Source: Pelomonas sp. Root1444
GTDB taxonomy: Bacteria; Pseudomonadota; Gammaproteobacteria; Burkholderiales; Burkholderiaceae_C
Direction: 5' to 3'
Assembly (NCBI RefSeq): GCF_001426885.1
Contig: NZ_LMFP01000001.1
Location: forward strand, 549,812 to 613,811
Length of the DNA stretch: 64,000 nucleotides
The position numbers and the translations under genes were made by a program. Below the pieces are notes generated by a model, which saw only the letters and a list, made by a program, of their open reading frames with translations, searched no databases and had not been told where the DNA came from. Shown one piece after another: positions 32,102 to 59,919 of this stretch (positions are counted from its first letter, which is position 1; each line of letters opens with the position of its first letter).

Positions 32102-33961
<1,860 letters not shown>

Positions 33962-38519: not shown

Positions 38520-38551
38520 GTTGTTCTCCTGGTGTCGAGGGTCTTTGGGGC

Positions 38552-38842
38552 TCACTGGCCGAAGTTCTTCTTGTCGTACTCGGCGTGTGTGCCGCCCCAC
38601 TCGATCATGACGATGCCGTTCTGAAAACGGACTTTGACAACCAGCCGGTAGCTGTTGCCCTTGATGTTGAAGATGACCCGGTTGCCACCCAAAAAGCTTG
38701 CTGAGGCGTAGCGGTCCTTGATGTCCTGCGGGGATGACCAAGTCGCGCCCTCCACTTCCTTGCGCCAGGCATCCAGCGCTCCCCGAGCATCTGCATGGGC
38801 CGCCTTCAGCTCCTCCAAGATGGGTATGTTGACTAGTTGCAT
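38552..38842 (-). CDS. higB: HigB family toxin (RelE-like mRNA interferase)
   Basis: 96-aa toxin of the HigB/RelE fold, expected to cleave mRNA at the ribosome. Family motifs are LDAWRKEVEGATW, GNRVIFNIKGNSYRLVVKV and the C-terminal GTHAEYDK. The toxin gene precedes the antitoxin by 32 bp, the reversed order typical of higBA. An inverted repeat about 38 bp upstream of the start is a likely binding site for the antitoxin's helix-turn-helix. Confidence 0.88.
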   Translation of the reverse strand: MQLVNIPILEELKAAHADARGALDAWRKEVEGATWSSPQDIKDRYASASFLGGNRVIFNIKGNSYRLVVKVRFQNGIVMIEWGGTHAEYDKKNFGQ

Positions 38843-38879
38843 AGGCCTCGATTTGGCCCCCCGGCATGGTTCAATTGTG

Positions 38880-39020: not shown

Positions 39021-39638
39021 ATGTGCAACATGAACGATGCCGCATTGAAAATGAAATTGGGCGACCTGGCGCATATCCGCGCCGGACACCCCTTTCGGGG
39101 CGCGGTTGAGGCGTTTCCTGAGGGGGCGGTCGCCGTTGTCCAGATGAAGGACATCCTGCCTGGCGAGGGTGTCGACTGGTCGTCAGCGGTCCGTACGGAA
39201 CTGGTGGGGCGTAAGGAGCCGGACTGGCTGAGCGGTGGCGACCTCCTATTCGTGTCTAGGGGCAGTCGGTACTTCGCGGTGTGCATTGATTCGCCACCGG
39301 CGCCTGCTGTCTGCGGGCCGCACCTGTTCCACCTGACGGTCAAGGCTCGCGAGCGGCTGATGCCGGCATTCCTTGCCTGGATGGTTGGGCAGGGCCCGGT
39401 GCAACGTCAGCTCCAGCAGGCGGCCTCCGGATCGCTGCAACTCAGCGTGACCCGGCAAGCGCTCGAGGCACTCGAGATCCCGCTGCCACCGCTTGCGACC
39501 CAAAGGTTCGTCACAGATTTGGCTGCGGCGGCTGCTCGTGAGCGGGCCGTTCTGACTGCCCTGATCCAAAACCGCGAGCTGCAGCTTGAGGCGCTCGCCT
39601 CCGCCCTGGCCAGCGGACAACCCATGAATCTCACCTGA
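39021..39638 (+). CDS. HsdS-like half-size specificity subunit (first of two)
   Basis: 205-aa protein resembling one target-recognition half of a type I specificity subunit. It has the opening KLGDLAHIRAGHPFRG, a mid-region LSGGDLLFVSRGS, then LQLSVTRQALEALEIPLPPLATQRFVTDL and a coiled coil (about 165-200). It stands 8 bp before hsdM, while a full-size hsdS follows hsdM. A start at ATG 39030 is also possible. It could pair as a homodimer or regulate specificity; the role is inference. Confidence 0.72.
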   Translation: MCNMNDAALKMKLGDLAHIRAGHPFRGAVEAFPEGAVAVVQMKDILPGEGVDWSSAVRTELVGRKEPDWLSGGDLLFVSRGSRYFAVCIDSPPAPAVCGPHLFHLTVKARERLMPAFLAWMVGQGPVQRQLQQAASGSLQLSVTRQALEALEIPLPPLATQRFVTDLAAAAARERAVLTALIQNRELQLEALASALASGQPMNLT

Positions 39639-39646
39639 GGGTACCG

Positions 39647-41161
39647 ATGACTGAAATCACGAACGTCAGCCAAGACGACATCAACGCCGCTGTCTGGAAC
39701 GCCTGCGACACCTTCCGCGGCACTGTCGACCCAAGCATCTACAAAGACTTTGTGTTGACGATGCTGTTCTTGAAGTACGTCTCGGACGTCTGGCAAGACC
39801 ACTACGACGGCTACAAGCAGCAGTACGGTGATCACCCGGAGCTGATCGCCGAGATGCTCAAGAGCGAGCGCTTCGTCCTGCCCTCTGACGCGAGCTTCTA
39901 TGCCCTGTACAACCAGCGGCACAGCCCTGGCAACGGCGAGCGCATCGACAAGGCTCTGCACGCCATCGAAGAAGCCAACATCACCAAGCTGCGCGATGTG
40001 TTCCAGGACATCAGCTTCAACTCCAACAAGCTGGGCGACGAGCAGCAGAAAAACGACATCCTGCGCCACCTGCTGGAGGACTTTGCCAAGCCCGAACTGG
40101 ACCTGCGCCCCAGCCGCGTTGGCCAGCTCGATGTGATCGGCAACGCCTACGAGTTCCTCATCAAGAACTTCGCCTCGACCAGCGGCAAGAAGGCCGGCGA
40201 GTTCTACACGCCGCCCGAGGTCTCAACTCTGATGGCACGGCTGATGGCGCCACAAGAAGGCGACGAGATCTGCGACCCGACCTGTGGCTCCGGCTCACTG
40301 TTGATGAAGTGCGGCCGACTGGTCCGCGAAGGCACTGGCTCGCGCAAGTACGCGCTCTACGGCCAGGAAGCGATCGGCAGCACCTGGGCTCTCGCCAAGA
40401 TGAACATGTTTCTGCATGGAGAGGACAACCACCGCATCGAGTGGGGCGACACCATTCGCAACCCCAAGCTGCTGGACGGCACGATCAACCTGAAGCACTT
40501 CGACATCGTCGTTGCGAACCCGCCTTTCAGCCTAGAAAAGTGGGGCTTCGAAGGCGCCGACGCCGACAAGTTCAGCCGCTTCCGCCGCGGCGTGCCTCCG
40601 CGCACTAAGGGCGACTACGCCTTCATCCTCCACATGGTCGAGACGATGAAGCCAGGTTCCGGCCGCATGGCAGTGGTCGTACCACACGGAGTGCTGTTCC
40701 GTGGTGCGGCCGAAGGGCGCATCCGCCAGAGGCTAGTTGAGGAAAACTTGCTCGACGTCGTGATTGGCTTGCCCGAGAAGCTCTTCTACGGAACGGGCAT
40801 CCCTGCCGCGGTGCTGGTGTTCCGCAAGTACAAGACAGACGACAAGGTGTTGTTCATCGATGCCAGCCGCGACTTCGAGGCCGGCAAGAACCAGAACCTG
40901 CTGCGCAAGACCGACCTTGAGCGCATCCTGGACACCGTCGCCACGCGCCAGCCGGTGGCGCGCTACGCGCATTTGGCCACGCCGGCCGAGATCGCCGAGA
41001 ACGACTTCAACCTCAACCTCCCGCGGTACGTCGACACCTTCGAGGAAGAGGACGAGATCGACCTGATGGTTGTGAAGCGCGAGCGCGAGCTTCTCAAAGC
41101 AGAGCTGGCGCAGTTAGAGCATCAGATGGATGCCTACCTGAAGGAGCTTGGCTATGAGTAA
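39647..41161 (+). CDS. hsdM: Type I restriction-modification system methyltransferase subunit
   Basis: N6-adenine methyltransferase, 504 aa. The helical N-terminal HsdM domain (about residues 10-140) precedes the N6_Mtase domain, with EFYTPPEV, SAM-binding DPTCGSGSLLMKC and catalytic NPPF (VVANPPFSLEKWG). A coiled-coil C-terminus (about 475-504) likely contacts HsdS. It combines with HsdS for modification and with HsdR for restriction. Confidence 0.95.
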   Translation: MTEITNVSQDDINAAVWNACDTFRGTVDPSIYKDFVLTMLFLKYVSDVWQDHYDGYKQQYGDHPELIAEMLKSERFVLPSDASFYALYNQRHSPGNGERIDKALHAIEEANITKLRDVFQDISFNSNKLGDEQQKNDILRHLLEDFAKPELDLRPSRVGQLDVIGNAYEFLIKNFASTSGKKAGEFYTPPEVSTLMARLMAPQEGDEICDPTCGSGSLLMKCGRLVREGTGSRKYALYGQEAIGSTWALAKMNMFLHGEDNHRIEWGDTIRNPKLLDGTINLKHFDIVVANPPFSLEKWGFEGADADKFSRFRRGVPPRTKGDYAFILHMVETMKPGSGRMAVVVPHGVLFRGAAEGRIRQRLVEENLLDVVIGLPEKLFYGTGIPAAVLVFRKYKTDDKVLFIDASRDFEAGKNQNLLRKTDLERILDTVATRQPVARYAHLATPAEIAENDFNLNLPRYVDTFEEEDEIDLMVVKRERELLKAELAQLEHQMDAYLKELGYE

Positions 41162-41277
41162 CGGCAAGCCTGTCGAGCACGGGGACGCGCGTGCGGCGAA
41201 AGCGAGAGCAGCTGGCGAGGACGACATTGCCGAACTCAAAAGGGCTCAACCACGGTGGGGAATGGAAGGGCGCAGTG

Positions 41278-42558
41278 ATGCTGCCTGAGGGATGGCGATC
41301 CAGCACGATCGGCGCTGAAACGAGGATCCTGTCAGGCGGCACGCCCAGCAAGGAGAACATCAGCTTCTGGGGTGGCAAGTTCCCCTGGGTTTCGGCGCGA
41401 GACATGAAGACTATGTACTTGCGGTCGACCCTGCTTGGACTTACGGATGCCGGACGGGCTGCCTCGGCCGTTGCGCCAGCGAACGCCGTGCTCGTGCTGA
41501 CCCGGGGCATGACATTGTTGAAAGACCTTCCCGTTTGCTTCATCCAAGAGGAGATGGCATTCAATCAGGACATTAAGGCCCTGCTCCCGAAGGGTACGTT
41601 GAACGCCCGATTCCTCGCGTATCAACTACTCGCCCGGAAGAACGAGATTCTTGACCTCGTAGACACCGCGGGCCATGGCACCGGTCGCCTTGATACCGAG
41701 TTGCTGAAAGACGTTGCATTGACCGTGCCGCCAGCCGATGAGCAGACACGCATTGCCGACGCGCTGTCCACATGGGATAAGGCAATCTCCAAGGCGGAGC
41801 AGCTTCTCGCGAACCGACGAGTGCAATGGCAAGGTTTGCTTGCACGTTGTTTGCACCTTCCAGCCGCCAATCCCGACGCACGAGGGTTGGCCGACAACGG
41901 GGGCTTCCCGCCCTCGGTACAGCCCGGAATCCCGAACCTGCCTCCCGCGCCGGCAGGGTGGTGTCGCACACCGCTTGGTCGCCATCTGACCGAGGTGCGC
42001 CGGCCCGCACCACTGACCCAGGATGAGACCTATCGTCTTGTGACAGTCAAGCGTTCGCGCGGTGGCGTCGAGTTGCGTGAGACCCTGGCCGGCCGCGAGA
42101 TCAAGACACCAACGCAGTTCTATGTCCGCACCGGCGACTTCCTGATTTCTAAGCGGCAGATCGTGCATGGCGCTTGTGGCATCGTGCCTGCCGAATTGGA
42201 CGGAGCGGTCGTCTCCAACGAGTACGCGGTGCTCAACAGCGACGGGCAGATCGATCTGCGCTTCCTGCGCTACCTATCCGAGTCGCGCTACTTCCAGCAG
42301 ACCTGCTTTCACTCGAGCATCGGTGTGCACGTCGAGAAGATGATCTTCAAGACTGAGCGCTGGCTGAAGTGGCCGTTCAACATTCCACCGCTGCCCGTCC
42401 AACTGCGCATCGTGGAGGTGCTGGACATCGCGAGGCGAGAAGTGGAACTCATCGCTGCGCAGATCGAGCGGCTCAAGCAAGAGAAGACCGCGCTTATGGC
42501 CGACCTGCTTACCGGCAAGCGCCGCGTCCGTGTTCCTGCCGCCGAGACCACGCCATGA
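41278..42558 (+). CDS. hsdS: Type I restriction-modification specificity subunit (second, full-size)
   Basis: DNA-recognition subunit with two target-recognition domains. Each repeat ends in a conserved spacer (LTVPPADEQTRIADALSTWDKAI; NIPPLPVQLRIVEVLDIARREV). I prefer ATG 41278 (MLPEGWRSSTIG, 426 aa) with a GAAGG site; an in-frame GTG at 41191 would add 29 residues that do not look like HsdS. The spacing to hsdM would then be about 116 bp. It overlaps hsdR by ATGA. The recognised sequence cannot be predicted from here. Confidence 0.9.
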   Translation: MLPEGWRSSTIGAETRILSGGTPSKENISFWGGKFPWVSARDMKTMYLRSTLLGLTDAGRAASAVAPANAVLVLTRGMTLLKDLPVCFIQEEMAFNQDIKALLPKGTLNARFLAYQLLARKNEILDLVDTAGHGTGRLDTELLKDVALTVPPADEQTRIADALSTWDKAISKAEQLLANRRVQWQGLLARCLHLPAANPDARGLADNGGFPPSVQPGIPNLPPAPAGWCRTPLGRHLTEVRRPAPLTQDETYRLVTVKRSRGGVELRETLAGREIKTPTQFYVRTGDFLISKRQIVHGACGIVPAELDGAVVSNEYAVLNSDGQIDLRFLRYLSESRYFQQTCFHSSIGVHVEKMIFKTERWLKWPFNIPPLPVQLRIVEVLDIARREVELIAAQIERLKQEKTALMADLLTGKRRVRVPAAETTP

Positions 42559-45500
42559 CCGTCGCCGTCCCCAACTCGAAGGAGCAGTACGCCACACACC
42601 TTCCGGCGCTGCATCTGCTGTGCAACCTAGGTTGGAACTTCCTGACCACGGCCCAGGCGCTGGCACTGCGCGGCGGCACACGCGAGGTCATCCTGAGGTC
42701 GCGCCTGGTCGAGGTGCTACAGACCCGCCTCTACGAGTACAAGGGCCAGTGGTACCCGCTGTCTAGCAGCGGCATCGAGCAGGTCGTGCGGGAGTTGTCT
42801 GCCCTCAGCTTGGCTGAAGGGCTGCTGCCGGCCAACGAGCGGCTCTACAGCAAGCTGGCCTTAGGCATCACGGTCACGGAGTTCATGCCGGATGGCAAGA
42901 AGCACCAACCGACCATCGCAGTGATCGACTGGACGAGTGCTTCGGCGAACCGCTGGGACGTTACCGAGGAACTGGAGGTCTTGTCTGCGCAAGGCACACA
43001 CCACCGGACGCCAGACGTGGTGGCCTACGTGAACGGTATCCCGTTGGTGGTGATCGAGGCCAAGCGTCCGGAGTCGGGCGGCGGCAGCCACCCCTCCAAG
43101 GCCATGGTCCAGGAGGGCATCAGCCAGCACCTGCGCAACCAGCGGCCAGACGAGATCCCCAACCTCTTCGCGTACGCCCAACTGCTGCTGTCCATCAGCC
43201 AGACCGAGGGGCGCTACGGCACCACCCACACCGCCGCCAAGTTCTGGGCCAAATGGCGTGAGGAAGAGTTCGACGACGCTCACCTGCAGGCCGTCAAGAA
43301 CGCTCCGTTGTGTCCGGACGTCCGTGCCGCGTTGTTTGAAGGCAAGCCTGCATCACTCGCCACCTACTTCGACGCGCTCTGGAGCGCGCCGATGCAGGCC
43401 GCTGAGCAGGATCGGTTGCTGGTCAGTCTGCTGACGCCTTCACGCCTGTTGGAGTTTTTGAGGGGCTATGTGCTCTTCGACCGCAAGGTCGGCAAGATCG
43501 TCGCTCGCTATCAGCAATTCTTCGGCATCCGTGCCCTGCTGTCGCGCATCAGCCAGAAGAAGCCTGATTCTCAGGGCGGCGGCCGTGAGGGTGGTGTTGT
43601 CTGGCACACCACGGGCTCCGGCAAGAGCTTCACGATGGTGTTCTTGACCAAGGCACTGCTGCTGGTCGAGAGACTCAAGGAATGCCGGATCGTGGTGGTC
43701 ACCGACCGCGTGGATCTTGAAACCCAGCTCTCGCGCAACTTCATGACGGGCGGGGCCTTCGGCTCCAGCATTGCCACGCAGAAGGATGGCGAGCGCAGCC
43801 GCACCCTTTCCGGTCGCGACCTGGCTCAGCGCATCGGCAAGGGGACCGAGCGGATCACCTTCACGCTCGTCCACAAGTTCAACACGGCGTCCAAGTTGCC
43901 CGAGTGTCGCAATGACTCGCCGGACATGATCGTGCTGGTCGACGAAGGACACCGAAGCCATGGCGGCGAGACTCATGAGCGGATGAAGAAGGCCTTGCCG
44001 AAGGCGGCTTACATCGCCTTCACGGGCACGCCGCTGCTCAAGGACGAGAAGACCTCCAACAAGTTCGGCCCCATCGTCCATGCCTACACCATGCAACGCG
44101 CGGTGGAGGACGAAACCGTGGCGCCGCTGCTCTACGAAGAGCGTGTGCCGGAACTGGACATCAACGAGGAGGCTGTCAACCGCTGGTTCGACAAGATCAC
44201 CAGCAACCTCAGCGACGCGCAGCGCAGTGACCTGAAGCGCAAGTTCGCAAAGAAGGGTGCCATCTATGGCGCCGCCAACCGCATTGAGTTGATCGCGTGG
44301 GACATCGCGACCCACTTCAACGAGAACATCAAGAAGCTGGGTCTAGGTCTGAAGGGCCAAGTCGCGACTGACAGCAAGCTGGATGCGATCCGCTACAAGA
44401 AGGCGTTGGACGAGACAGGTCTGGTGACGAGCGCGATCGTGATCTCGGCACCCGACACCCGTGAAGGCAACTCGGAAGTCGACGAGGACACGCTGCCTGA
44501 AGTCCAGAAGTGGTGGAAGCAAGCCATGGCCACCTGTGGCAACGACCCCGAAGCCTATGAGAAGCAAGTCATCGGTGACTTTGGCACTGACGGAGCGCCG
44601 GATCTGCTGATCGTCGTGGACAAGTTGCTCACGGGCTTCGATGAGCCTCGCAACACGGTGCTGTACATCGATAAGCCGCTGAAGGGCCACAACCTGATGC
44701 AGGCGGTGGCGCGGGTGAACCGCCTGCATGATGCCAAGCGCTACGGCGTGCTGGTGGACTACCGCGGCATCCTGAAAGAGCTGGACACCGCCATTCGTGC
44801 CTATCAAGACCTCGAGTCACGCACGCAGGGCGGGTTCGACATCAAAGATCTGGAAGGGCTGTACCACCAGTTCAGCACCGAGTACAAGCGTCTGCCTGCG
44901 CTCCATGAGCAGCTGTGGTCGTTCTTCAAGTCGGTCACCAACAAGCTGGATCGCGAACAGTTCCGCCAGGTGCTCACCCCTCGCTTCGTGAAGGACGCCG
45001 ATGGCACCGAGTACGACGAGCGTCAGAAGCTGCGCGACGACTTCTATGACGCGCTCACGGCTTTTGGCCTGTGCCTCCAGACGGCACTGTCCTCGCGGAG
45101 CTTTTTCGAGGACAAGAGCTTTTCGGAGGATCTGATCACTCGCTACAAGAGTGATCTTCGCTTCTTCACCGAACTGCGCCAAACGGCTCGCCGAGATGCC
45201 ATGGAGACAGTGGACTACAGCGTCTACGAAGAGCAGATCCGCAAGCTGGTCGACAAGCAGGTCATCGGCACGGAGGTGCGAGAGCCTGACGGTGTGTATC
45301 TGGTCCACCAGCTGGGCCAGGAGAAGCCGGAGGATTGGTCGGAAGAGAAGACCCGCAATGAGACCGACATGATCCGGACCCGGCTGCGGAAGACCATCGA
45401 GCAAGAACTGGCTGAGGATCCGTACGCACAAAAGGTGTTCGGTGAGTTGCTTCGCCATGCGATCGCCGAGGCCGAGGCGATGTTCGACCACCCGCTGAAG

Positions 45501-45866
45501 CAATACGCCTTGTTCAAGTCGTTCGAGGAACAAGTGGCGTCGCGGGCAACGCCTGGTACGCCGGATGAACTGGCAGCCAACCCACATGCCAAAGCCTACT
45601 TTGGTGCCATGCGCTTGGTGCTGGGTGAAGACGGCTTTGCCGCTTTGGATTCCCAGGCCCTGGAGCGCTTGGTCCAGCAGTCCCTGGCCATCGACACCGT
45701 GGTCAGGGATGCAGTCGCTGAGAACTCGCTCAACCCACAGAACATCGAGGCAGCGATCCGCAAGGGGCTGCTGCCACTGCTGTTTGGCAGCCTGGGCCTG
45801 GACAACGCGAAGGAGGTGGTGGAACAAGTCATCCAGATCACTCGCATCGGCCTCAGCAAGGCGTGA
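42555..45866 (+). CDS. hsdR: Type I restriction enzyme motor/nuclease subunit
   Basis: Endonuclease and translocase, 1103 aa from ATG 42555. The N-terminal PD-(D/E)xK nuclease region has TPDVVAYVNGIPLVVIEAKRP. Helicase motifs follow: Walker A (TTGSGKSFTM), DEGH box (VDEGHRSHGG), motif III FTGTPLL and motif VI (QAVARVNR). A C-terminal helical region of ~350 residues is expected for HsdR. All key motifs look intact, so restriction should be active. Confidence 0.95.
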   Translation: MTVAVPNSKEQYATHLPALHLLCNLGWNFLTTAQALALRGGTREVILRSRLVEVLQTRLYEYKGQWYPLSSSGIEQVVRELSALSLAEGLLPANERLYSKLALGITVTEFMPDGKKHQPTIAVIDWTSASANRWDVTEELEVLSAQGTHHRTPDVVAYVNGIPLVVIEAKRPESGGGSHPSKAMVQEGISQHLRNQRPDEIPNLFAYAQLLLSISQTEGRYGTTHTAAKFWAKWREEEFDDAHLQAVKNAPLCPDVRAALFEGKPASLATYFDALWSAPMQAAEQDRLLVSLLTPSRLLEFLRGYVLFDRKVGKIVARYQQFFGIRALLSRISQKKPDSQGGGREGGVVWHTTGSGKSFTMVFLTKALLLVERLKECRIVVVTDRVDLETQLSRNFMTGGAFGSSIATQKDGERSRTLSGRDLAQRIGKGTERITFTLVHKFNTASKLPECRNDSPDMIVLVDEGHRSHGGETHERMKKALPKAAYIAFTGTPLLKDEKTSNKFGPIVHAYTMQRAVEDETVAPLLYEERVPELDINEEAVNRWFDKITSNLSDAQRSDLKRKFAKKGAIYGAANRIELIAWDIATHFNENIKKLGLGLKGQVATDSKLDAIRYKKALDETGLVTSAIVISAPDTREGNSEVDEDTLPEVQKWWKQAMATCGNDPEAYEKQVIGDFGTDGAPDLLIVVDKLLTGFDEPRNTVLYIDKPLKGHNLMQAVARVNRLHDAKRYGVLVDYRGILKELDTAIRAYQDLESRTQGGFDIKDLEGLYHQFSTEYKRLPALHEQLWSFFKSVTNKLDREQFRQVLTPRFVKDADGTEYDERQKLRDDFYDALTAFGLCLQTALSSRSFFEDKSFSEDLITRYKSDLRFFTELRQTARRDAMETVDYSVYEEQIRKLVDKQVIGTEVREPDGVYLVHQLGQEKPEDWSEEKTRNETDMIRTRLRKTIEQELAEDPYAQKVFGELLRHAIAEAEAMFDHPLKQYALFKSFEEQVASRATPGTPDELAANPHAKAYFGAMRLVLGEDGFAALDSQALERLVQQSLAIDTVVRDAVAENSLNPQNIEAAIRKGLLPLLFGSLGLDNAKEVVEQVIQITRIGLSKA

Positions 45867-46762: not shown

Positions 46763-47146
46763 TTAGGCTCTGCCCACAGTGTTGCTTAGGTGGGTGAGTG
46801 CATCGTAGATGCGCCAGGCTTGATCCAGTTTTTCCTCTGGCGATAGACGCTCCCGTCGAACTTTGGCTTGCCGCAGAGCTTCGGCGAATGCCACCGTGAA
46901 GCGGTCTCTATCTATGCGGAGCGGCGCGGCACGCAAACCTGTCAACAGGAATCGCACATCGACGCCGATTGACTCCATTGCAACGAGGGTCTCGGCTGCT
47001 GGCGAGCTTCGACCACTTTCGTACTGAATGACGCTCAGCCTCGAGCAGTTGACTGCGGCCGCGAGCCCCTGCTGCGTGAGGCCGAGGCGCGCCCGCTCGT
47101 CGACCAGACGCGCGCCAATGTCCCGTCGGATCTCAGCATTTCTCAT
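46763..47146 (-). CDS. XRE family transcriptional regulator
   Basis: 127-aa DNA-binding protein. The helix-turn-helix is at about residues 10-65 (LTQQGLAAAVNCSRLSVIQYESG). The C-terminal part is helical. It is divergent from the TniQ gene; the intergenic DNA contains an AT-rich stretch (47157-47200) with a gagta/tactc inverted pair that may be its operator. It may regulate the transposon's TniQ gene or cargo. A 140-bp gap towards the metallopeptidase gene holds nothing I can identify. Confidence 0.82.
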   Translation of the reverse strand: MRNAEIRRDIGARLVDERARLGLTQQGLAAAVNCSRLSVIQYESGRSSPAAETLVAMESIGVDVRFLLTGLRAAPLRIDRDRFTVAFAEALRQAKVRRERLSPEEKLDQAWRIYDALTHLSNTVGRA

Positions 47147-47308: not shown

Positions 47309-48301
47309 GTGATCCACGCGGAATTGATGCCAGATGAGCTAGCCCTGGGACTTCTGGGGCGACTGAGATCCTTGAATGGGTGGCAAGGCCACCAAAGGGG
47401 CATGGCAACTAGCCAGTTGCGCGATTCACTTGACGCTGAGGGCCTCGCCACCGAAGGTCTTAGCAATGCCGACTTGCTGGCGCTCGCGGCGGGAATCCCA
47501 ACAGCTCAGTTCGTGCGCTTCCACACACTGTTGCCATTCAGGTTCGTTGCCTCTGACTTCGGTGCGCACGTTCCCTATGGATCGCCATGCAGCGCAGGCA
47601 CAGAGCAGGTCTACGGGCTTGCGTTGCCAACGGGGCGGCTCTTTGCATGCCGGGCATGCGCGTCCGAGGATGTTGGCCGCTGGGGGTTCAGTTGGTATCG
47701 ACGCTCACACCAAGTTCCCGGTCTGGAATGGTGCGAGAGGCATCGGATGACACTTTCGTGGATTGACGATGGAGATCCGAGCGGCGAGTTGCCGCACACT
47801 TGGTTTGAGCGGGGGGGAGTTCGCGAAATCTCCGTCAGGACTTTTGCCCTGCAATGCCAGAAAGGCGCCCTGCGACGCTATCTCTCAGTTTGCAGCGCAC
47901 TCCTGGACAGGGCAGCGCCCGCCGACTCCAGGGCTCTGAACCGCAAGCTGATGGCGCGTGCCAGCGCGCTGGGCATGGGCGTCGACTCTGAAAAGCACGA
48001 ATGCAAGCTCAAGACGGCGATATCAGCGTTTGCCGACCAGCATTGGCTGTCTGCGCACTTTCCGGATATCCAGAAGGGCGAGCGTCTTGCAGAGACGAGG
48101 CTGGGGCGCTTGCTGCGTGATCCAAGAGCCGTCGCGCAGGGCGCCGACTACGGCTTGGTCATTTCCTTGCTTTACGACGACGTAGATGAGGCAATGGACC
48201 TGCTGTTCGGGATTCGGAAGCGCGTCGGCGTGTCGATGAGTGCTGCGCGGCCAGATGCGTCGCGCCAACCCGCTCAAGGTGAATTGGTCATGACCAGCTG
48301 A
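47309..48301 (+). CDS. TniQ family transposition protein (short)
   Basis: Target-selection protein of 330 aa. It has the TniQ opening (ELALGLLGRLRSLNGW), the FHTLLPFRF motif and a zinc finger Cys114-x2-Cys117...Cys142-x2-His145 (FACRACAS; WCERH). It starts at GTG 47309 with a perfect AGGAGGTGA site. It lacks the long C-terminal DNA-binding part of TnsD. In Tn7-like elements a second TniQ protein can direct insertion to another kind of target. Its 3' end overlaps the convergent tnsD-like gene by 28 bp. Confidence 0.83.
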   Translation: MIHAELMPDELALGLLGRLRSLNGWQGHQRGMATSQLRDSLDAEGLATEGLSNADLLALAAGIPTAQFVRFHTLLPFRFVASDFGAHVPYGSPCSAGTEQVYGLALPTGRLFACRACASEDVGRWGFSWYRRSHQVPGLEWCERHRMTLSWIDDGDPSGELPHTWFERGGVREISVRTFALQCQKGALRRYLSVCSALLDRAAPADSRALNRKLMARASALGMGVDSEKHECKLKTAISAFADQHWLSAHFPDIQKGERLAETRLGRLLRDPRAVAQGADYGLVISLLYDDVDEAMDLLFGIRKRVGVSMSAARPDASRQPAQGELVMTS

Positions 48302-50049
48302 TGCCCTTCGTCCGTACGACGCCGGCGTGTGGCTTGCTTCAGTGCGGCTCCGGTGAGCGGCATGCGATCTAGCTTGCTGAGCAGGGGTTTCAAATCAGGC
48401 ACTGCCTGACACAACGCGCCAATCGTGACTCGCTTGGGCGCGGTCTTGGCTGCGATCAAGAGGCAGGCCCTGGCAACCTGGCCTGCGTAATCCCTATCTC
48501 GCGCGTCCCAGTCGACTCGGGAGTGGTTTGACCTCGGTGCAGGCGGTTGCTTCTTGGCTTGAACTTCGAGCCAGGCGCGATCATTGCGGTAAAGCCAGGC
48601 GAAAGTTGCAGGCGCCATTCGTCGGATGTCTGTATAGGTCGCATGCGGATTCCGGGCCGCTATTGCAGCCCAATCGGCGCGGGCCCGACGCATCGCCTGC
48701 GTGAACCGAGCCCCGCGCCAGGCGTCAGCAAGTCCAATCTCTGTCCTGAGAGTGTTGGTCACCGTTTGAATCGAGATGCCACACGACTCGGCGATGACCG
48801 CTTTGTCAACGCCACGACGAAGAGCTCGAATGACCTGCTTACGCACGTCCGGCTTCAAGAGTTTTGGGCGTCGGTCTACTCTGACCGCTGCTTGGGCCGC
48901 CCAGGCCATGGCCGTGCCAGTGGCAATGCCGACAAACGCCGCTGCTGCGGTGACCGACATCCCGGCATCGATCCGGTTTAGAAGCTCTGCTCTGCGGGCA
49001 TCTACCTTCGCCGAAGCCATGTTGGCGAGGTCGGGCGCGCTTGAGCCCCTTATGTGGTGTGGGACGGCAATCTTCGAGTCGGCACAGTAGGCGGCCCAGA
49101 AGGATTCCCATGTGCCGAACAGCGCTATCACCATTGCGAAATGTCGCAGTGGATGCGTACCCGTTCTAGGAGGACGCAGCAGACGGGCGAACTGCGCAAT
49201 CGCTTCTTCCGGGCAGCTCGGCAGTGCTGACAGCTCTGGGATTGCTCGAAGCGGGGCCACCGCAGTCGCAAGCGCTTCGCCAAAGGTGGCTGTGCATAGG
49301 CGGCCGATACTGGATATCAGTCCTTGCTCGGCGGCAGCACTGCGATACGTCGACGCCAACCGAACGTCGTCGAAGTGAAATCCGTTGGGAAGCGCCAGAA
49401 CCTGCTCACCGCAGGTGACAAGCTGTCGCCAAATCGGGTGTGCTGCCTCCGGCGGCCGTTCTGATACGGGCACCATTGACTTGAGATCCGGCAAATGCCA
49501 GAGGAATCGCCCGACCCCAGTAGCCTTAACCGTTGATCGAAGCAGCATCTGGTGGTGCCGTGGGCAGATCCAGGTGCTAGGAAGTTGGTGGACCAGCCTC
49601 CAATGCGGTGTGCCACCGACGGCTTGATCCTGGGCCATGCAGTCGGAGCACGCCTTGAGGGGGTGGTGGGCACGGAAGCGCGTCGCCAGCATCCCTAGCT
49701 GTCCCTTCAATGGGCCAATGCCCGCGCCACGCATGGCCGCGCAGGCATTGCGCGCGACACCCTCCGATCTATATGGAAGGTAGAACGGAAGCAGGGTTCG
49801 ATGCCGAATGACTGATTCGGCACTGCCAAGCGCGCCACCGGTCCGTTCCACAAACTTGTCCAGGCACGACGGCAGATCGTGGGCACTTCCCAGCTGCGCG
49901 TGACCAAAGAGGGCGCGGCACGTGTCGGATGCCAGTGCTCGGCAGCTGATCACGTGTTGTCGACTGGCGAGGCTGAACAACGTTTCGTCATCGCGCCATT
50001 CGTCGATGAATGGTGCGTCAAAGAGCGCGCGCGACGTGTGCTTGGTCAC
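48274..50049 (-). CDS. tnsD: TnsD-like target-site selection protein (TniQ plus DNA-binding C-terminus)
   Basis: 591-aa protein, the likely factor recognising glmS. The N-terminal TniQ domain has an RHRTLLPFYLPY motif and zinc ligands Cys134-x2-Cys137 and Cys162-x2-His165 (CSDC; CPRHH). The remainder (about 280-590) contains at least two helix-turn-helix-like segments (MSVTAAAAFVGIATGTAMAWA, about 379-400; AVIAESCGISIQTVTNTLR, about 422-440), as expected for TnsD. It is longer than Tn7 TnsD. The glmS function is inferred from the element's position. Confidence 0.82.
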   Translation of the reverse strand: MTKHTSRALFDAPFIDEWRDDETLFSLASRQHVISCRALASDTCRALFGHAQLGSAHDLPSCLDKFVERTGGALGSAESVIRHRTLLPFYLPYRSEGVARNACAAMRGAGIGPLKGQLGMLATRFRAHHPLKACSDCMAQDQAVGGTPHWRLVHQLPSTWICPRHHQMLLRSTVKATGVGRFLWHLPDLKSMVPVSERPPEAAHPIWRQLVTCGEQVLALPNGFHFDDVRLASTYRSAAAEQGLISSIGRLCTATFGEALATAVAPLRAIPELSALPSCPEEAIAQFARLLRPPRTGTHPLRHFAMVIALFGTWESFWAAYCADSKIAVPHHIRGSSAPDLANMASAKVDARRAELLNRIDAGMSVTAAAAFVGIATGTAMAWAAQAAVRVDRRPKLLKPDVRKQVIRALRRGVDKAVIAESCGISIQTVTNTLRTEIGLADAWRGARFTQAMRRARADWAAIAARNPHATYTDIRRMAPATFAWLYRNDRAWLEVQAKKQPPAPRSNHSRVDWDARDRDYAGQVARACLLIAAKTAPKRVTIGALCQAVPDLKPLLSKLDRMPLTGAALKQATRRRRTDEGHQLVMTNSP

Positions 50050-50166: not shown

Positions 50167-50520
50167 GTGCACAATCTTGAGCAAGAAGGTGCATGCGACA
50201 TCCTGTCGCACGAGTGGGCGGATGCCGGTGGCGCCGGGTCAGCTGAGGGCCAGATCCTTATGCAGCTTGTCGAAGCAGAACTGCAGATGAACATGGCAAG
50301 AGGGCCGAATGGGCCGGAGCCTGCCGCTCCTGGCCTATCCGCCGAACAACTCGCGTGGCGAAGATTCCGCGCTGAAGGCGTAAACGTTCGAGCCTGGGCC
50401 ATCGAGCGAGGCTTTCATCCTGGCCTTGTCTATTCGGTGCTCCGCGGCGAGCGCAAATGCGTGCGCGGGCAATCTCATCAAGTGGCGGTCGCATTGGGGC
50501 TGAAGCCCTCGGCCAGCTAA
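50167..50520 (+). CDS. BcepMu gp16-like DNA-binding regulator
   Basis: Up to 117 aa, matching phage BcepMu gp16-type proteins in its C-terminal half: FRAEGVNVRAWAIERGF, VYSVLRGE and RGQSHQVAVALGLK. Such proteins are short helix-turn-helix regulators of transposable phages. GTG 50167 is the longest start, but it overlaps a TGTGCACA palindrome; starts at 50275 or 50287 (ATG) would still keep the domain. It lies between divergent tnsD and tnsA, so it may control transposition genes. Its phage relatives hint at exchange between Mu-like phages and this element. Confidence 0.7.
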   Translation: MHNLEQEGACDILSHEWADAGGAGSAEGQILMQLVEAELQMNMARGPNGPEPAAPGLSAEQLAWRRFRAEGVNVRAWAIERGFHPGLVYSVLRGERKCVRGQSHQVAVALGLKPSAS

Positions 50521-50820
50521 CGCGACCTCCCGGAGGGCACTGCCATGCTGAAGGACCCGTGAACGAAAAAAGCGCTTACGGCCTGCCAGCCGTAAGCGCT
50601 TCCCGTCCGGGGAGACCCCAGAGTCAAACTCACAACTGAACTCTATCGTCGCGATCGCGACGGGTCAATCTCCCCCTTTGCACACTTTTGTGAACGCTGC
50701 GGCGGGCGAGGAACAACCGCGCCCAGAGGGGATGCAAATGACGCGAAGGCAGGTGCTTCTCGTGCTTGGCGGGACCGGGGACGCCACCGCCATTGGTGCC
50801 GTCACGAACGGTGGTGCTTG
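50521..50820. promoter_or_regulatory. tnsABC upstream region with palindromes
   Basis: No gene is seen in these 300 bp. They hold a 13-bp perfect hairpin (50570-50601), a 16-bp perfect palindrome cgtcgcgatcgcgacg (50647-50662), and imperfect half-sites TTGCACA / TGTGAAC (50678-50684, 50689-50695). TTGCACA-like sites also occur at 50166-50173 near the gp16-like start. This is the probable promoter and operator region of tnsABC, with the gp16-like protein the best candidate binder. Confidence 0.45.
50570..50601 (-). terminator. Rho-independent-type hairpin facing leftwards
   Basis: Arms aagcgcttacggc (50570-50582) and gccgtaagcgctt (50589-50601) match perfectly around a 6-nt loop. On the minus strand it is followed by a T-run. 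No minus-strand gene ends here, so it may insulate the gp16-like and tnsD genes from antisense transcription, or serve the plus strand less well. Confidence 0.6.
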
Positions 50821-51789
50821 ATGGCTCAGTTCAAGATTACCGAGGCCAGGCTACGCACGATCAAGCAGCGTCAATGGAAAGACCGGTGGGGTTCTGACTA
50901 CGTGGCGGGGATCTGGGCCGACCCAAAGGAGGCCCCGGGCATCAGCACGGGATCGATCCTGCGGCCTGCCAAGGTGGGACTGCGCGAGTTTCATACCCTT
51001 AGCTCTGCTGAAACCTTCGCATCGCTTCTTGTCCTGATGCACCCGAACTGCTGGGAAGTGCAAGAGCAGCGAATCATGTATCCGCTGCCGCGGCCGCACC
51101 TGTTGTTCGGACACCCCAGGGCGAGCGGGCTTCCACTCAAGCAGTTCGCCGGGTCGATCGAGATCGCGGATCGCCTCGGCCTCAAGCATCCAAAGGTGCG
51201 AATTCGGCTTGGCCCAAAACCGCAAGACTGGCCGATCGCGCCGTTTCCCTATTTCAGCGACTTGCTCGCTTACATGGAGGACGCACAAGGCCCGTACGTG
51301 GTCAACATCTCGGTCAAGAGCAAGTTATCTGACTTCAGGCGTAAGGGGCCGAAGACGTCCAGAAGCAGAGCTAATGAAGACGACCCTGGGACGGTAGCTA
51401 GGCAACAACTTGAAGAGAACTACTACGCTTCTGCTGGAATTCGAACGCAGCCCATCGGGCGTGACCAGATGCCAGACGACTTGTGTTGGAATCTGCGAGA
51501 CCTCTTCCTGGACGACACCTATCCGCTCGAGGCGACTGATGCTCAGCGTCGGGAAGTCATTGAGATCTGGCGGGACGCAATTGGTCGCGATCTACCGGCG
51601 TACGTGTTCGCCCGAAAGATTGCAAGTAAGTGTGGCGTGCCAGAGCGCGAAGCCACGGCGATTCTCCGGCAGTCCATATGGCGCCGCGACCTGCGTGTCG
51701 ACTTGTTCCGTCCCATCTTGATGACCGACCCATTGCGACCCGAGGTGGACGACGTTTTTGTGCGCTTCGCTGCGTGGTTTTCAAGGTAG
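50821..51789 (+). CDS. tnsA: Tn7-like transposition protein TnsA
   Basis: Endonuclease cutting the 5' ends of the element, 322 aa. The N-terminal restriction-enzyme-like fold has Glu64 (SSAETFASL), Asp147 (FSDLLAYMED) and the strand VNISVKS (Lys166) as plausible catalytic residues; the usual Q-x-K is S-V-K here. The C-terminal part (about 240-320) is a winged-helix-like TnsA_C domain. ATG 50821 is preceded by an in-frame TTG. It forms a heteromeric transposase with TnsB and implies cut-and-paste movement. Confidence 0.82.
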   Translation: MAQFKITEARLRTIKQRQWKDRWGSDYVAGIWADPKEAPGISTGSILRPAKVGLREFHTLSSAETFASLLVLMHPNCWEVQEQRIMYPLPRPHLLFGHPRASGLPLKQFAGSIEIADRLGLKHPKVRIRLGPKPQDWPIAPFPYFSDLLAYMEDAQGPYVVNISVKSKLSDFRRKGPKTSRSRANEDDPGTVARQQLEENYYASAGIRTQPIGRDQMPDDLCWNLRDLFLDDTYPLEATDAQRREVIEIWRDAIGRDLPAYVFARKIASKCGVPEREATAILRQSIWRRDLRVDLFRPILMTDPLRPEVDDVFVRFAAWFSR

Positions 51790-51795
51790 GCCGAC

Positions 51796-53844
51796 GTGTT
51801 CGTGGGACTCCAATTCGAAGCTCCGAATGGCTATGGGTCTTTTCGGCAGGGGGTTCGCTACTACTTCGCAGGGGACAGATCCGATGGCAGCGTTCTCATC
51901 GTCTGGTTCGCCCGTCACAAGAAGCAGTGGCGCGCGCATGTGCTCATGCCATCCAGGGCGGACTTCGAGTCTTGGATCACGGGCGATGCCCCTGTGCTCA
52001 AACGTCTTGCCGTTCAGTACCGACTGCCGCCGTGGCTGCAAGAAAACGAAGGCTTGGATTTCGCTGCCCTCGAGGAGCGAAGGTACAAAAAGAAGAGAAG
52101 GTCGTATCAGGGGCAGGCCGAGGATCGACTGTTCAAGATCGCTCCAGCGCTAGCTAAAGCAATGCAAATATTGGGTGCAGAAGACCCACTACGTGAAATC
52201 GCAGCAAGTGCAAAGGAACTGGCAAACCCCTCGTCGGCTCATCCGCATCGCCTGCAAGTGTGGTTCTTCGCTTACATGCTCCACGGCCAAGACCTGTGGG
52301 CTCTGAAGCAGCCGACGCTTGGCTACACAGGGACGTGGGACCGCCGTGATGATGCGCATAAGGAGAAAAAGTATGGCCGTCCTCCACTAGCTGGCACCTG
52401 CTTCGGATCGTCGTCAGCTCCAATGCGAGACCGGATCGTAAAAGCGTACCTCACCTACGCGTCAGAAGGTGTGACGATGACGTCCATTCACAGAACAGCT
52501 TTGTTGGATAAATGGGGCTGCAAGGCGCTTGAGGTTGACGGGGTCCACACATACGTCCACCCACAGAACAAGCCGTTTCCCTCCTACGGGCAGTTTCGAT
52601 CGGTAGTGGTCGGAGAGCTTGGCCTCGACCAGGTTCAGCTGAAGCTCTACGGTGCGCCTCGAATTCGTTTAAAGGCGCCAATTGAGAACGGCAACTACAC
52701 ACAGCAATACGCCAACATCCTGGAGGGGCTCGAGGTCGACGCGTACTACACAGAACGCCCGACATCCATGTTCTCGAGCGATCCTGGGGAGCCGCTTTCA
52801 GTTGCTCGAGGAATATGCGTCAAAACGGGCAGTGTCGTTGGCGTCGGCTTCTCACTAGGTGCCGAAGATGGTGAGGCATACAGATCCATGCTGTTCTGTA
52901 TGGCGGCGCCCAAGTCGTACATTGCCTGGCTCTACGGAATCCCTGAGGGGCATCTCAACTGGATCATGCAGGGGCTTCCGCCCAACTTCGTTTCTGACCG
53001 CGGGCCTGGTGGCCATCGAAAGGTAGCGGAACGACTGCAGCAAGCGTTTCCGATCAAATCAATCGTGGGCTCCTATGCCGGGCAGTCAAAGGCTTGTGCC
53101 GAGTCCAGTCATCCGCGTGATGTCAAGCTCGAAGGCGCGCCCAAGTACAAGCAAAGTGAACTGAATGCAATTCAGATGGCGAAGCGCGAGCTGTATCGCG
53201 CAGCCAGCGACAACCATTCAAGCAACATTGCCCCGCGGTTGACAGATCAGGAGATCGTCGACTTTCGCAAGGAAGGGCGAGTTGCGACTCCGCACCACTA
53301 CTGGCAGTACCTCGATCAACGCTGTCGAACCCACGCTCGGAGCCTTCCTCTAGAAGAAGCTGTACGCGCTTTCTGGACCCCCATCAAGTTAACTGTAGAC
53401 CGCTATGGCGTTCGGCACCGGCATCGGCACTATTCGTCTGAATCGTTCGTCGCGTCGGACTTGCATAGGAAACTGGCCGGTCGGGTGGATACGGTGGAGG
53501 TTCAAGGCTACATGCTCAGCCTGGTTGTGCGCTGCATCTGGGTTGAGCATGACGGACGTCTCTTCCAGGTTGAGGCGGATTCAAGATCGCGGATAGACAA
53601 AGACGACTTGAATGTCTCCGACGCAGACCTTGCGCACGTTAAGGGAGAGCGTGCGGCCCTCGAGTCCAGCACTCGCATCAGTGCCTCGGCGGCAGCAGCG
53701 AAAGCCGAGAGTGAGTTCTCCGAAACTACGGGCAAAAGTTGGCACGCGGGAGGACTTCGCAATGGTGTGCCGAAGAGGGTGAGTGGAACGGCCGCTCACG
53801 AGTCGCAGGTCATCAAAGGCAAATCTAGGAGGAGAGCAGCATGA
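51796..53844 (+). CDS. tnsB: Tn7-like transposase TnsB (DDE)
   Basis: Retroviral-integrase-type transposase of 682 aa. The DDE triad is readable: Asp315 (GLEVDAYYTE), Asp401 (NFVSDRGPGGHRK) and Glu436 (ACAESSHPRD). N-terminal helix-turn-helix regions (about 120-270) should bind the ~20-bp end repeats seen next to glmS. It starts at GTG 51796, 6 bp after tnsA, and its stop overlaps tnsC. The C-terminal tail is Lys/Arg/Ala-rich, as expected for contact with TnsC. Confidence 0.9.
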   Translation: MFVGLQFEAPNGYGSFRQGVRYYFAGDRSDGSVLIVWFARHKKQWRAHVLMPSRADFESWITGDAPVLKRLAVQYRLPPWLQENEGLDFAALEERRYKKKRRSYQGQAEDRLFKIAPALAKAMQILGAEDPLREIAASAKELANPSSAHPHRLQVWFFAYMLHGQDLWALKQPTLGYTGTWDRRDDAHKEKKYGRPPLAGTCFGSSSAPMRDRIVKAYLTYASEGVTMTSIHRTALLDKWGCKALEVDGVHTYVHPQNKPFPSYGQFRSVVVGELGLDQVQLKLYGAPRIRLKAPIENGNYTQQYANILEGLEVDAYYTERPTSMFSSDPGEPLSVARGICVKTGSVVGVGFSLGAEDGEAYRSMLFCMAAPKSYIAWLYGIPEGHLNWIMQGLPPNFVSDRGPGGHRKVAERLQQAFPIKSIVGSYAGQSKACAESSHPRDVKLEGAPKYKQSELNAIQMAKRELYRAASDNHSSNIAPRLTDQEIVDFRKEGRVATPHHYWQYLDQRCRTHARSLPLEEAVRAFWTPIKLTVDRYGVRHRHRHYSSESFVASDLHRKLAGRVDTVEVQGYMLSLVVRCIWVEHDGRLFQVEADSRSRIDKDDLNVSDADLAHVKGERAALESSTRISASAAAAKAESEFSETTGKSWHAGGLRNGVPKRVSGTAAHESQVIKGKSRRRAA

Positions 53845-55193
53845 ACGCCATGCCCCTTGTAGGCCGATATGCGACTGATCTGACCGATGACGATATAGAT
53901 CGCGCCGTCAATATTGCGCCGGTTCGAATAGAGCTGCATGGAAACGACGCGAATAGGTTGGCGGACCTGCTGGACGGTACCTTGCGGCGCATCTTCAAGG
54001 CAGATCGCCAAGTCAGATCCATCATCCGCTACTTACTGTCAGCGGCGCGGGCGCATGCGGAGATACATCTGGCGACCGAGAAGGCCTATTTGGCCGGCTT
54101 GTATGGGAGGCATCCTTGGGGACACGTCATGACCCCTGCGATCTGCCTAACGGGACTAGGAGGCGTTGGGAAATCGGACCTCTTCCATGCTTTAGCTCGA
54201 TTACTCGGTCCGGCGATCGCGTTTGCCGTCGCTGGCCATTCCAATCTGAAGTCGTCACCGCTGTGGCAGTTGAACGCCTCGGAAGGCCTTGGGATCAATG
54301 CGTTGTTGCGGCCCCACGTAATCCACGAGGGTGGTGTGAACGATGCGGCGGTGATCAGCGCCAAGGATATGCGGTCGCCCCGTCTTGTTCACCTTGCAAG
54401 TCGAACGTCGTGGCGAGATGGCGCGTGCCTGATGGTCGCAGATGAACTTCAGCATGTCTCGTTCGGCGCGGATTCCAATGCTCAGGTGACGGCGCTTCTC
54501 ATCAAGCTCCTGCAAATCGGCCCACGCGTTGCTTTCGGCGCTAACTTCAGCTTGCTTCACAAGTTGCTCAGACGAAAACAGGAGGACCACCAGCGCCTGT
54601 TGACTCGCCCGCTACTGATGGAGCCGATGTCCGTCGATGATGAGGACTTTTCTGCCTACGTGCGAGTCGTCATCGGCGTTGCCCCGGAGTTTCTTGTCTT
54701 TGACCCCAGGCAACACCAGGAACAACTTCACCTCTATACGTTCGGAATCAAGAGGCTAGTCGTTGAACTTGTTGTGCTTGCCTTTCGGTTGGCGCGGTCA
54801 AAGAACAGGAAGGCGACCGTCGGAGGTCAAGAGCTTCTTGCTGCATATCGCCATTTTGATTACTCAGCGAACCGGGAGGCCGTCGAACTGCTGCATCGAC
54901 AGGCGATCCAAAAGCAGATGCTTCGGGAAGACCTGTGGTGCCCCTTGGCTGGAGTTGAGCCGATCACCCAGTCCCCATCGAATGTCGTAGATGCTGACGC
55001 CGCAATCCAGCATTTCGAACGTCGTGTTGAAGAGGCTCTTCTGGATGCTGCCCTTGGACCCAAGGCGAAAGGCGAGAGCCCCCAGGAAACGCGAGTTCGC
55101 AAGAGAAGCACGGCAGTTGTTACGCCGATTCGCGCGGGGAAGGCAACGAAGGAAGACCTGATTGCCGGCGCCAACGCGTGGAACGACCTGTGA
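53841..55193 (+). CDS. tnsC: Tn7-like AAA+ regulator TnsC
   Basis: ATPase that connects TniQ-type target proteins with TnsAB, 450 aa. Walker A GLGGVGKSD (105-113) and a Walker B-like CLMVADELQHV (about 196-206) are present, in the TniB/TnsC AAA+ fold. It overlaps tnsB by four bases, giving a compact tnsABC unit. The C-terminal ~60 residues are basic and less ordered. No tnsE-like gene follows. Confidence 0.88.
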   Translation: MNAMPLVGRYATDLTDDDIDRAVNIAPVRIELHGNDANRLADLLDGTLRRIFKADRQVRSIIRYLLSAARAHAEIHLATEKAYLAGLYGRHPWGHVMTPAICLTGLGGVGKSDLFHALARLLGPAIAFAVAGHSNLKSSPLWQLNASEGLGINALLRPHVIHEGGVNDAAVISAKDMRSPRLVHLASRTSWRDGACLMVADELQHVSFGADSNAQVTALLIKLLQIGPRVAFGANFSLLHKLLRRKQEDHQRLLTRPLLMEPMSVDDEDFSAYVRVVIGVAPEFLVFDPRQHQEQLHLYTFGIKRLVVELVVLAFRLARSKNRKATVGGQELLAAYRHFDYSANREAVELLHRQAIQKQMLREDLWCPLAGVEPITQSPSNVVDADAAIQHFERRVEEALLDAALGPKAKGESPQETRVRKRSTAVVTPIRAGKATKEDLIAGANAWNDL

Positions 55194-58252: not shown

Positions 58253-58491
58253 GGGGACTCCGAGGACTTGATGTCTGGCGGCACGGCTATGCGGAGGCGC
58301 CTCCTCCGCAGGCACGTGAGACCTGCGCACACTCGACGGGCGCCACCTTCTACGGCAAGATGCATCATAAACATCAGGTAAATCAACAACTTAACGTACT
58401 TCTCCAGTATGGATTCGATACTTAATGCACCCACTGTGCGGAGCCCCTGCGCGAGCACGCTCGGTGATGCAGGACACCAACTGGAGTGGAC

Positions 58492-58865
58492 ATGACTGAC
58501 TTGATCGTGCTGCCGCCACCGAAGCGCACGCGCTCTCGGCGGCTCCGCAAGAAGCTGCGCATCGGCGAGTTCCAGACCCTGGGCTTCGATTACGAACTGA
58601 CATGGCAGGCGCCGCCGTCGATCGAGCTGCAGGATCGGTTCATCGACCAACTGCTCGAGCAGGTCATCGAGCCGCGCGCGCTGAGTCTGGGAGGGGGGTC
58701 AACTGTGGCTTCGTGGCCGCGCGACGGGGCAGTGTCACGGAGGCCGATCGCGAAGCCTTCGACAGCTGGATTCGCAACTGGCCCGACATCGCCAAGTCCG
58801 AGATCGGACACCTGCGGGACGCCTGGTATGACGAGGCACCCGGTGCGCCGCCCCATTCCCCGTAG
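58492..58865 (+). pseudogene. YggL family (ribosome-associated) gene with a frameshift
   Basis: The first ~66 codons (from ATG 58492) encode the YggL start RSRRLRKKLRIGEFQTLGF up to VIEPRALSLGGG. The family sequence then continues in another frame: NCGFVAARRGSVTEADREAF, then HLRDAWYDE, ending at 58865. The switch lies in a G-run around 58690-58697 and needs one extra base to restore the frame. It is either a true null allele, a sequencing error in the homopolymer, or slippage. E. coli YggL binds the 50S subunit. Confidence 0.7.
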
Positions 58866-58878
58866 ACATCACACACAT

Positions 58879-59610: not shown

Positions 59611-59827
59611 AATGTATAGCGACGTCCCGTTGAACGTGCCGCTGCCGTCGGACGGACTGACGGTCGGCGCTCACGGGGTCGTGGTCCATGTACACGGCCA
59701 AGGGGAGGCTTATGACGCTGAGTTCATGACTCCCGCTGGCGACACGATCGCAGTCGTCACGGTCGCGGAGGAGCAGCTGGAACCATCACCTCAAAATGCC
59801 GAGGCGGCTGCTGCGTGCCAGTCATAG
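59603..59827 (+). CDS. DUF4926 domain small protein
   Basis: About 74 aa from GTG 59603 (GGAGG site 5 bp upstream) or 71 from ATG 59612. The pattern VPLPSDGLTVGAHGVVVHVH, then EAYDAEFMTPAGDT, fits DUF4926, a small SH3-like barrel. Its 5' end overlaps the preceding gene by 8 bp, so they are likely co-translated. DUF4926 genes often neighbour toxin-antitoxin-like genes; the function is unknown. Confidence 0.65.
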   Translation: MREMYSDVPLNVPLPSDGLTVGAHGVVVHVHGQGEAYDAEFMTPAGDTIAVVTVAEEQLEPSPQNAEAAAACQS

Positions 59828-59919
59828 AGATGTTCTACAACCCCAAGCGGCGCCACGGCACGGCCAACCGCTGGCGACCGGCCAGCCACTACTTGAAGGT
59901 CGGGACCAGGCTGGTCTGA
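59821..59919 (+). pseudogene. IS3-family transposase remnant (C-terminal end)
   Basis: About 32 codons read VIEMFYNPKRRHGTANRWRP and on to a stop at 59917-59919. They match the conserved C-terminus of IS3 OrfB (IE.FYN..RRH). Nothing of the catalytic core is present, so this is a scar of an insertion sequence. Confidence 0.75.

Follow-up and report, generated by a model that had tools for sequence, protein, structure and literature searches.

A Tn7-like transposon with a short TniQ beside TnsD and no detected Cas effector

The element at glmS and its genes

The 64,000-nucleotide stretch of Pelomonas sp. Root1444 DNA analysed here (the window) carries a transposon at the 3' end of glmS. The host gene (32102-33961, plus strand) is 80-95% identical to glmS of five related genomes, and the left terminus of the element (33985-34001, plus strand) starts after 23 bp past the glmS stop codon; this terminus recurs with at most two mismatches in G174 (L096:9827) and G002 (L065:3393). 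Four TnsB-type end repeats at 33995-34088 (plus strand), with starts at 33995, 34015, 34055 and 34076, fit AATAAAGNNTGTC at 13, 12, 10 and 11 of 13 positions, in that order, the first two being 20 bp apart. Paired end repeats with the same 20-bp spacing also follow glmS in Hydrogenophaga, Pseudomonas typographi, P. fluorescens PfR 37, P. donghuensis, P. fluorescens PS655 and G002, and in G251 an end with one repeat does so.

The element encodes two TniQ-family proteins. The gene for the shorter, tniQ (47309-48301, plus strand), begins with GTG and specifies 330 aa; tnsD (48274-50049, minus strand) specifies 591 aa, and by ORF coordinates the two 3' ends share 28 bp (48274-48301). Pfam TniQ matches the short and the long protein (E 1.6e-9 and 3.7e-9, respectively), and the long one is further matched by TnsD (PF15978, E 3.5e-51), which covers residues 221-570, and by HTH_23. 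ORFs and Pfam agree here with the first-pass annotation, which had described a 330-aa TniQ and a 591-aa TnsD encoded convergently with a 28-bp overlap. It had also judged the long protein suited to glmS recognition, and a tnsD gene does lie in an element inserted at glmS.

The short protein had been credited with a zinc finger only. Its zinc ligands are indeed present (C114, C117, C142 and H145, invariant in alignments of 11 and 12 rows), but that description understates the protein. In structure comparisons, its predicted model (mean pLDDT 73.3) was best matched by TnsC-bound Tn7 TnsD(1-318) (Z 14.0, with an rmsd of 4.7 over 257 residues), aligning with TnsD residues 2-309, and next best by the TniQ of a type I-B CAST (Z 10.8). 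An 11-row profile of the short group matched Tn7 TnsD at E 1e-6, all other matches being worse than E 0.9. Because the short TniQ fits the TnsC-bound part of Tn7 TnsD, it appears to have kept the portion that meets TnsC and to lack most of the Pfam TnsD region. A resemblance of model residues 204-300 to an Xre-type repressor fold (Z 2.8-3.9) was too weak to claim. Between the window and G174, dN/dS was 0.18 for tniQ, 0.15 for tnsD and 0.16 for tnsA (NG86; rough values, as dS exceeded 1).

The transposition core is encoded on the plus strand by tnsA (endonuclease subunit, 50818-51789), tnsB (DDE transposase, 51796-53844) and tnsC (AAA ATPase, 53841-55193). For these three ORFs, Pfam at E 0.01 gave only a weak AAA_16 match on the third (E 0.0099, below the cut-off), NCBIfam nothing useful and PADLOC nothing. 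The TnsA model (mean pLDDT 84.5) nevertheless matches Tn7 TnsA 1t0f (E 1.1e-10), and a four-sequence TnsB profile matches Tn7 TnsB 7pik (E 3.3e-5), its sole match better than E 0.1. The TnsB of a plasmid relative matches Mu-type transposases (for example, E 9e-16), and the TnsC of a plasmid relative matches AAA_22 above the cut-off and TniB weakly. Since a control, a canonical plasmid element, matched Pfam Tn7_TnsA-like_N, Mu-transpos_C and TniB, the silence of Pfam on the window TnsABC reflects their divergence. With TnsA, TnsB, TnsC, a TniQ/TnsD selector and multiple TnsB sites at its end all present, the element is a Tn7-like transposon.

An Xre-type regulator gene (46763-47146, minus strand; Pfam HTH_3, E 9.4e-8) diverges from tniQ, and Xre-related genes adjoin tns genes in several relatives. 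Upstream of tnsA lies a small conserved gene (50167-50520, plus strand; 86% identity over 88 aa in G174), which reads as a helix-turn-helix protein and has no Pfam match; genes of its type precede tnsA in several relatives. Both kinds recur beside tns genes in several beta-proteobacterial members, and neither was detected in the nine Pseudomonas loci searched, plasmid copy A (see below) being outside that search.

The cargo, read from PADLOC and Pfam runs on the larger element ORFs, includes genes for an E1/JAB protein and a multi-ubiquitin/E2 protein (34580-37074, minus strand; Pfam ThiF, Prok-JAB, Multi_ubiq and Prok-E2_E), a PD-Lambda-2 defence pair (37293-38867, minus strand, with A at 38552-38842; PADLOC E 1.8e-155 and 5.3e-44) and type I restriction-modification genes (39021-45866, plus strand; PADLOC and Pfam). 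The first of these is a bacterial ubiquitin-like operon adjoining the PD-Lambda-2 pair.

No right end was found by end repeats, terminus or same-genus synteny in the window and the rest of the contig. Near its expected position, a 43-bp remnant (59823-59865, plus strand) is repeated in related genomes and reads as the 3' end of an IS3-type transposase gene, and chromosomal synteny with G259 restarts at 60406; together these suggest that the right end may have been lost. Without a right end the window copy may be stuck where it is, and hence immobile. The segment 58486-59827 was weighed as a possible further element because its homologues in G251 come after a second left end, and it was set aside since no end was seen there in the window. 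The intergenic segment 60119-60235 is REP-like, with many partial copies in related genomes.

Relatives, insertion sites and target duplications

Twenty-one elements with a TnsB of the window type were examined. They are those of the window, G174, G002, Hydrogenophaga, Rhodoferax TH121, a Betaproteobacteria MAG, G251, G015, G013, G224, P. arcuscaelestis, P. typographi, PfR 37, P. donghuensis, G173, PS655, P. reinekei and P. violetae, together with three plasmid copies; as they came from searches with the window TnsB or TniQ, the sample is not unbiased. Short-group and long-group proteins occur together in 18 of the 21 (in P. reinekei some 20 kb apart), including the P. koreensis plasmid copy, whose tniQ is split by a frameshift. 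The exceptions are the MAG (short group only), P. typographi (short only, on a cut contig) and G013 (two unassignable TniQ proteins).

The window order, with tniQ facing tnsD and then tnsA, tnsB and tnsC in the direction of tniQ, is found in G002, Hydrogenophaga, P. arcuscaelestis and the three plasmid copies. G174 keeps it, with an identical 28-bp overlap, as far as its tnsB, which is cut early by an insertion (IS21-type by sequence reading); its tnsC was not found in the stretch fetched. Gene order or strand is different in PfR 37, G173, G015, G224, G251 and Rhodoferax, and in four Pseudomonas elements (L054, L055, L056 and L058) tniQ is the first tns-type gene at the glmS-side end.

In a 50-row tree, one branch parts 25 short from 25 long (TnsD) rows with support of 100/100 and is present in 100% of 200 bootstrap trees; the root is a midpoint root only, and several end branches are long. 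The rows include, among the long ones, two TnsD of the canonical element CP027479.1, and also L031-L034, L038 and L039, which have no match to the window TnsB and stand outside the 21 elements. Left out were the two G013 proteins, the frameshifted tniQ on the P. koreensis plasmid, a second, truncated TnsD in G002 and the extra TniQ-family array genes of G174, P. violetae and P. reinekei. In each group the P. reinekei row is identical to the P. violetae row, so the two do not count as independent. Judged by this tree, the short and long selectors are probably an old pair, whose separation seems to predate the beta-proteobacterial and Pseudomonas members taken together. The host genome has a third TniQ-family gene (G000:C3:74124-74525, in a 377-aa ORF), near a gene that reads as relaxase-like; with no window-type tns genes in the 20 kb around it, it was not taken as a member of this element family.

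Eight of the 21 elements lie directly at glmS (the window, G002, Hydrogenophaga, G251, P. typographi, PfR 37, P. donghuensis and PS655), two at the 3' end of a gene whose protein reads as an amt-type ammonium transporter (Rhodoferax TH121, L140; the MAG, L129) and three on plasmids; the other eight are in arrays or have no site assigned. The two amt-site elements have the terminus TGATAGGAAACAAT in common. An ammonium transporter gene or amtB as attachment site was not met in the literature excerpts searched, which is no proof of newness. In G174 other TniQ genes come between glmS and the left end, which lies some 69 kb beyond it. Two tandem elements follow glmS in G251 (L087-L089), the second left end (L089:7529) starting 11 bases past the first right end and its first gene being related to window 58486-59610. 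In the MAG (L129-L131), a second left end with an identical terminus comes after the amt element, the same 4 bp lying between them; it may belong to a cargo-only derivative of about 4.7 kb.

Tn7 and CASTs make 5-bp target duplications. When termini were compared in the eight relatives with two ends (G002, G251, plasmid copies A and B, the P. koreensis plasmid copy, PS655, P. reinekei and the MAG at amt), the flanks shared exactly 4 bp in all eight. The termini are TG (TA once) and CA. At the chosen termini 5 bp were shared in none of the eight, and in at most four when termini were moved by up to two bases. Three cases of the 4-bp duplication are confirmed by empty sites. A 4-bp duplication for TnsB-type elements was not met in those parts of the literature that were searched; should an assay bear it out, it would be out of the ordinary for a Tn7-like transposase.

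Copies on plasmids

The first-pass annotation had proposed a search of related genomes for copies away from glmS; besides the two at amt, that search gave three on plasmids, and no TnsB relative was confirmed in phage and viral collections. The plasmid copies were found through TnsB and TnsD searches; the window short TniQ as a sequence query gave no match in 72,556 plasmid records. They come from the two records with the full family set, among 64 with a TnsD match and 257 with a match to the P. koreensis TnsB. NZ_CP087161.1 of Pseudomonas sp. CIP-10, typed as conjugative (MOBF), holds two. Copy A (82270-117178) carries copper and arsenic genes, its tnsB being cut by IS5, and copy B (120917-138496) holds tniQ, IS3, tnsD, tnsABC, a restriction cluster that includes an AAA ATPase, and a small hypothetical gene, with no further recognisable selector among the genes listed. 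CP027478.1 (P. koreensis p1), which MOB-suite typed as non-mobilizable, holds one (228710-268359). All three plasmid copies carry TnsD as well.

Empty sites were found for each. In L144 (NZ_CP083747.1), the left flank ends and the right flank starts at 20004/20001 for copy A, where an IS21 lies about 450 bp further left, and at 23738/23735 for copy B; in L146 (pRBL16), the corresponding positions for the P. koreensis copy are 6072/6069. A further comparison plasmid, L145, was less clear than these, its flanks aligning in part and the right flank of copy B having no match. The P. koreensis site falls within a helicase gene (L146 4464-6347) whose frame is open across the site, and site A is crossed by an unannotated 138-aa frame. 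The best ungapped identities of the plasmid left flanks to the glmS end were 0.38, 0.42 and 0.47, values equalled by 196, 102 and 22 of 200 shuffles, and five true glmS sites gave 0.70-0.82 in the same comparison. With empty sites on plasmids and flanks unlike the glmS end, the element family thus moves to plasmids by transposition.

Possible roles of the two selectors

No Cas effector gene and no CRISPR array were found in the window element, which in this differs from CRISPR-associated transposons. Among the PADLOC matches listed for 20 element proteins, which for three restriction proteins were the best 25, none was a Cas effector; those with a CRISPR label, again among the matches listed, were to TniQ models and, on TnsD, weakly to CARF (E 0.007). 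A search of 33900-60400, which a single atypical repeat would escape, gave no CRISPR-like array, and at the gathering score no Rfam family matched in the whole window. The annotators' remark that no Cascade or Cas12k genes were visible held up in these searches. Among the 17 family-bearing genomes or records, Cas1 occurs in three, the window's host (elsewhere in the genome), Hydrogenophaga and the MAG, the chromosomes of the plasmid hosts being outside the search, and Csy3 in one (Hydrogenophaga, on another contig). A TnsE search matched none of the 17, yet no control genome gave a match either.

We consider it slightly the better bet that TnsD homes to glmS and that the short TniQ, by itself or with a partner, directs TnsABC elsewhere, mainly to plasmids. 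TnsD would read the 3' end of glmS and so place the element at its observed position, 23 bp downstream. The short TniQ, keeping the TnsC-recruiting half of TnsD and having no C-terminal half, would be the second selector; most likely it would bring TnsABC to targets other than glmS, chiefly large plasmids and without Cas proteins, acting by its own fold or with an additional partner. Together the two might give the homing-plus-spreading life cycle that Tn7 has from TnsD and TnsE. In favour of this reading we count the joint retention of both selectors in 18 of 21 elements, the clean split in the tree, the low dN/dS values, the plasmid insertions with empty sites and flanks unlike glmS, the want of a further recognisable selector among the listed genes of copy B, the fit of the short TniQ to the TnsC-bound part of TnsD, and the finding of Cas1 in just three and of Csy3 in one of 17 genomes or records. 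Two targeting pathways without Cas had been suggested from the start. The two selectors, the failure to find a Cas effector in the element and the copies away from glmS bear out part of this; the role of the short TniQ is our inference, and the plasmid copies all carry TnsD.

That TnsD is present in all three plasmid copies means that it could itself have slipped to other sites, and the short TniQ may instead serve the glmS pathway, in a mixed complex with TnsD on TnsC or by tuning, with the plasmid copies as rare side products of TnsD or TnsABC. In line with this, tniQ and tnsD are neighbours in many elements, have one TnsC in common, and tniQ comes first at the glmS-side end in L054, L055, L056 and L058. 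We nonetheless think such an accessory role unlikely, since two plasmids carry three separate insertions between them, one plasmid having two, which looks like more than leakage, and the sole selector of the MAG amt element on its 88-kb contig is a short-group TniQ, no TnsD having been found there. The amt copies were not accepted as proof of targeting by the short TniQ: the Rhodoferax copy carries both selectors, and in the MAG TnsD may have been lost after insertion or another TniQ-family protein of the same genome may have acted. The MAG element also counts against a plasmid role for the short TniQ, as it would be a chromosomal use of it, and so does the P. koreensis copy, with a frameshifted tniQ on a plasmid typed as non-mobilizable. 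Further points against our main reading are that TnsE may have escaped a search silent in controls, that the window copy may be stuck, and that the window's host has a Cas1 elsewhere.

If the short TniQ does select other targets, it might depend for this on a partner supplied in trans, for example the Xre or small HTH-like protein encoded nearby, a replication protein, or a CRISPR effector of the host. The Xre and small genes recur by tns genes in several beta-proteobacterial members, the window's host has Cas1, and the portions of PMC10293859 consulted propose a partner in trans for partnerless short TniQ proteins. We hold this to be rather improbable, because Cas1 was not found in 14 of the 17 family-bearing genomes or records and the Xre and small genes were not detected in the nine Pseudomonas loci searched. 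A decaying, functionless duplicate is the least credible reading, and a very improbable one, even though tniQ is frameshifted in the P. koreensis plasmid copy and the short proteins evolve fast, on long branches: the gene is kept with TnsD in 18 of 21 elements, its zinc ligands are invariant in 12 of 12 aligned rows, and its dN/dS is 0.18. Returning to the short TniQ as second selector, we put forward only tentatively, and with some doubt, the narrower proposal that the short group selects plasmids or other mobile DNA on its own and without RNA, in a family whose transposase cuts with a 4-bp stagger. If true, the short TniQ would be a protein-only equivalent of TnsE and of Cas-guided targeting.

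Tn7 of E. coli resembles the window family in TnsA, TnsB, TnsC and TnsD, in insertion just downstream of glmS and in a two-pathway life cycle, the second pathway being one that we infer in the window family. Unlike Tn7, the window family has a short TniQ, its relatives duplicate 4 bp rather than 5 bp, the window TnsA and TnsB fall outside the Pfam models, and TnsE was not detected in a search that was silent in controls too. The type I-B1 CAST, in the part of PMC11406308 consulted, likewise has TnsD for glmS and a second TniQ; in the window element no Cas effector gene or CRISPR array was found.

The dual TniQ-TnsD loci of Faure et al. 2023 (PMC10293859), in the sections available to us, also pair a long with a short TniQ-family protein, and many of them lack Cas. 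These sections count 1,048 dual against 2,905 single loci, ascribe to the dual ones a direct and an indirect pathway, also without Cas, describe a Tn7017 branch "mostly lacking Cascade I-F" and already report a short TniQ without a partner. The general idea is therefore not new. Dual arrangements are said there to have arisen by separate in situ duplications, repeatedly by inference, whereas the split in the window family looks older than the sampled family. In Tn6022 (TniQ and TnsF, comM site), by the same excerpts, a short TniQ serves as hub for another selector; in the window no TnsF-like gene is seen beside tniQ. As to plasmids, the part of PMC8649781 consulted places 1,298 Tn7-like elements (20%) on them, some without identifiable tnsE, and offers as explanations as-yet-unknown plasmid selectors, misassigned contigs, missed tnsE and TnsE in trans.

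Apparently new in the window family are the old-looking short/long pair, the insertions into plasmids proven by empty sites, a duplication of 4 bp and insertion at amt; the divergent core adds to what makes this variant merit a test. It is a compact case, with five transposition genes, known ends, empty sites on plasmids and sites at both glmS and amt, and it lets the role of a Cas-less short TniQ be tested directly. The family may also resemble the state from which CRISPR-guided transposons were recruited.

A sister arrangement, with tnsD, a small HTH-like gene and tniQ in one direction, occurs in L031-L034 and L038; some of these stand beside genes that read as tns-like, and L034 lies at glmS.
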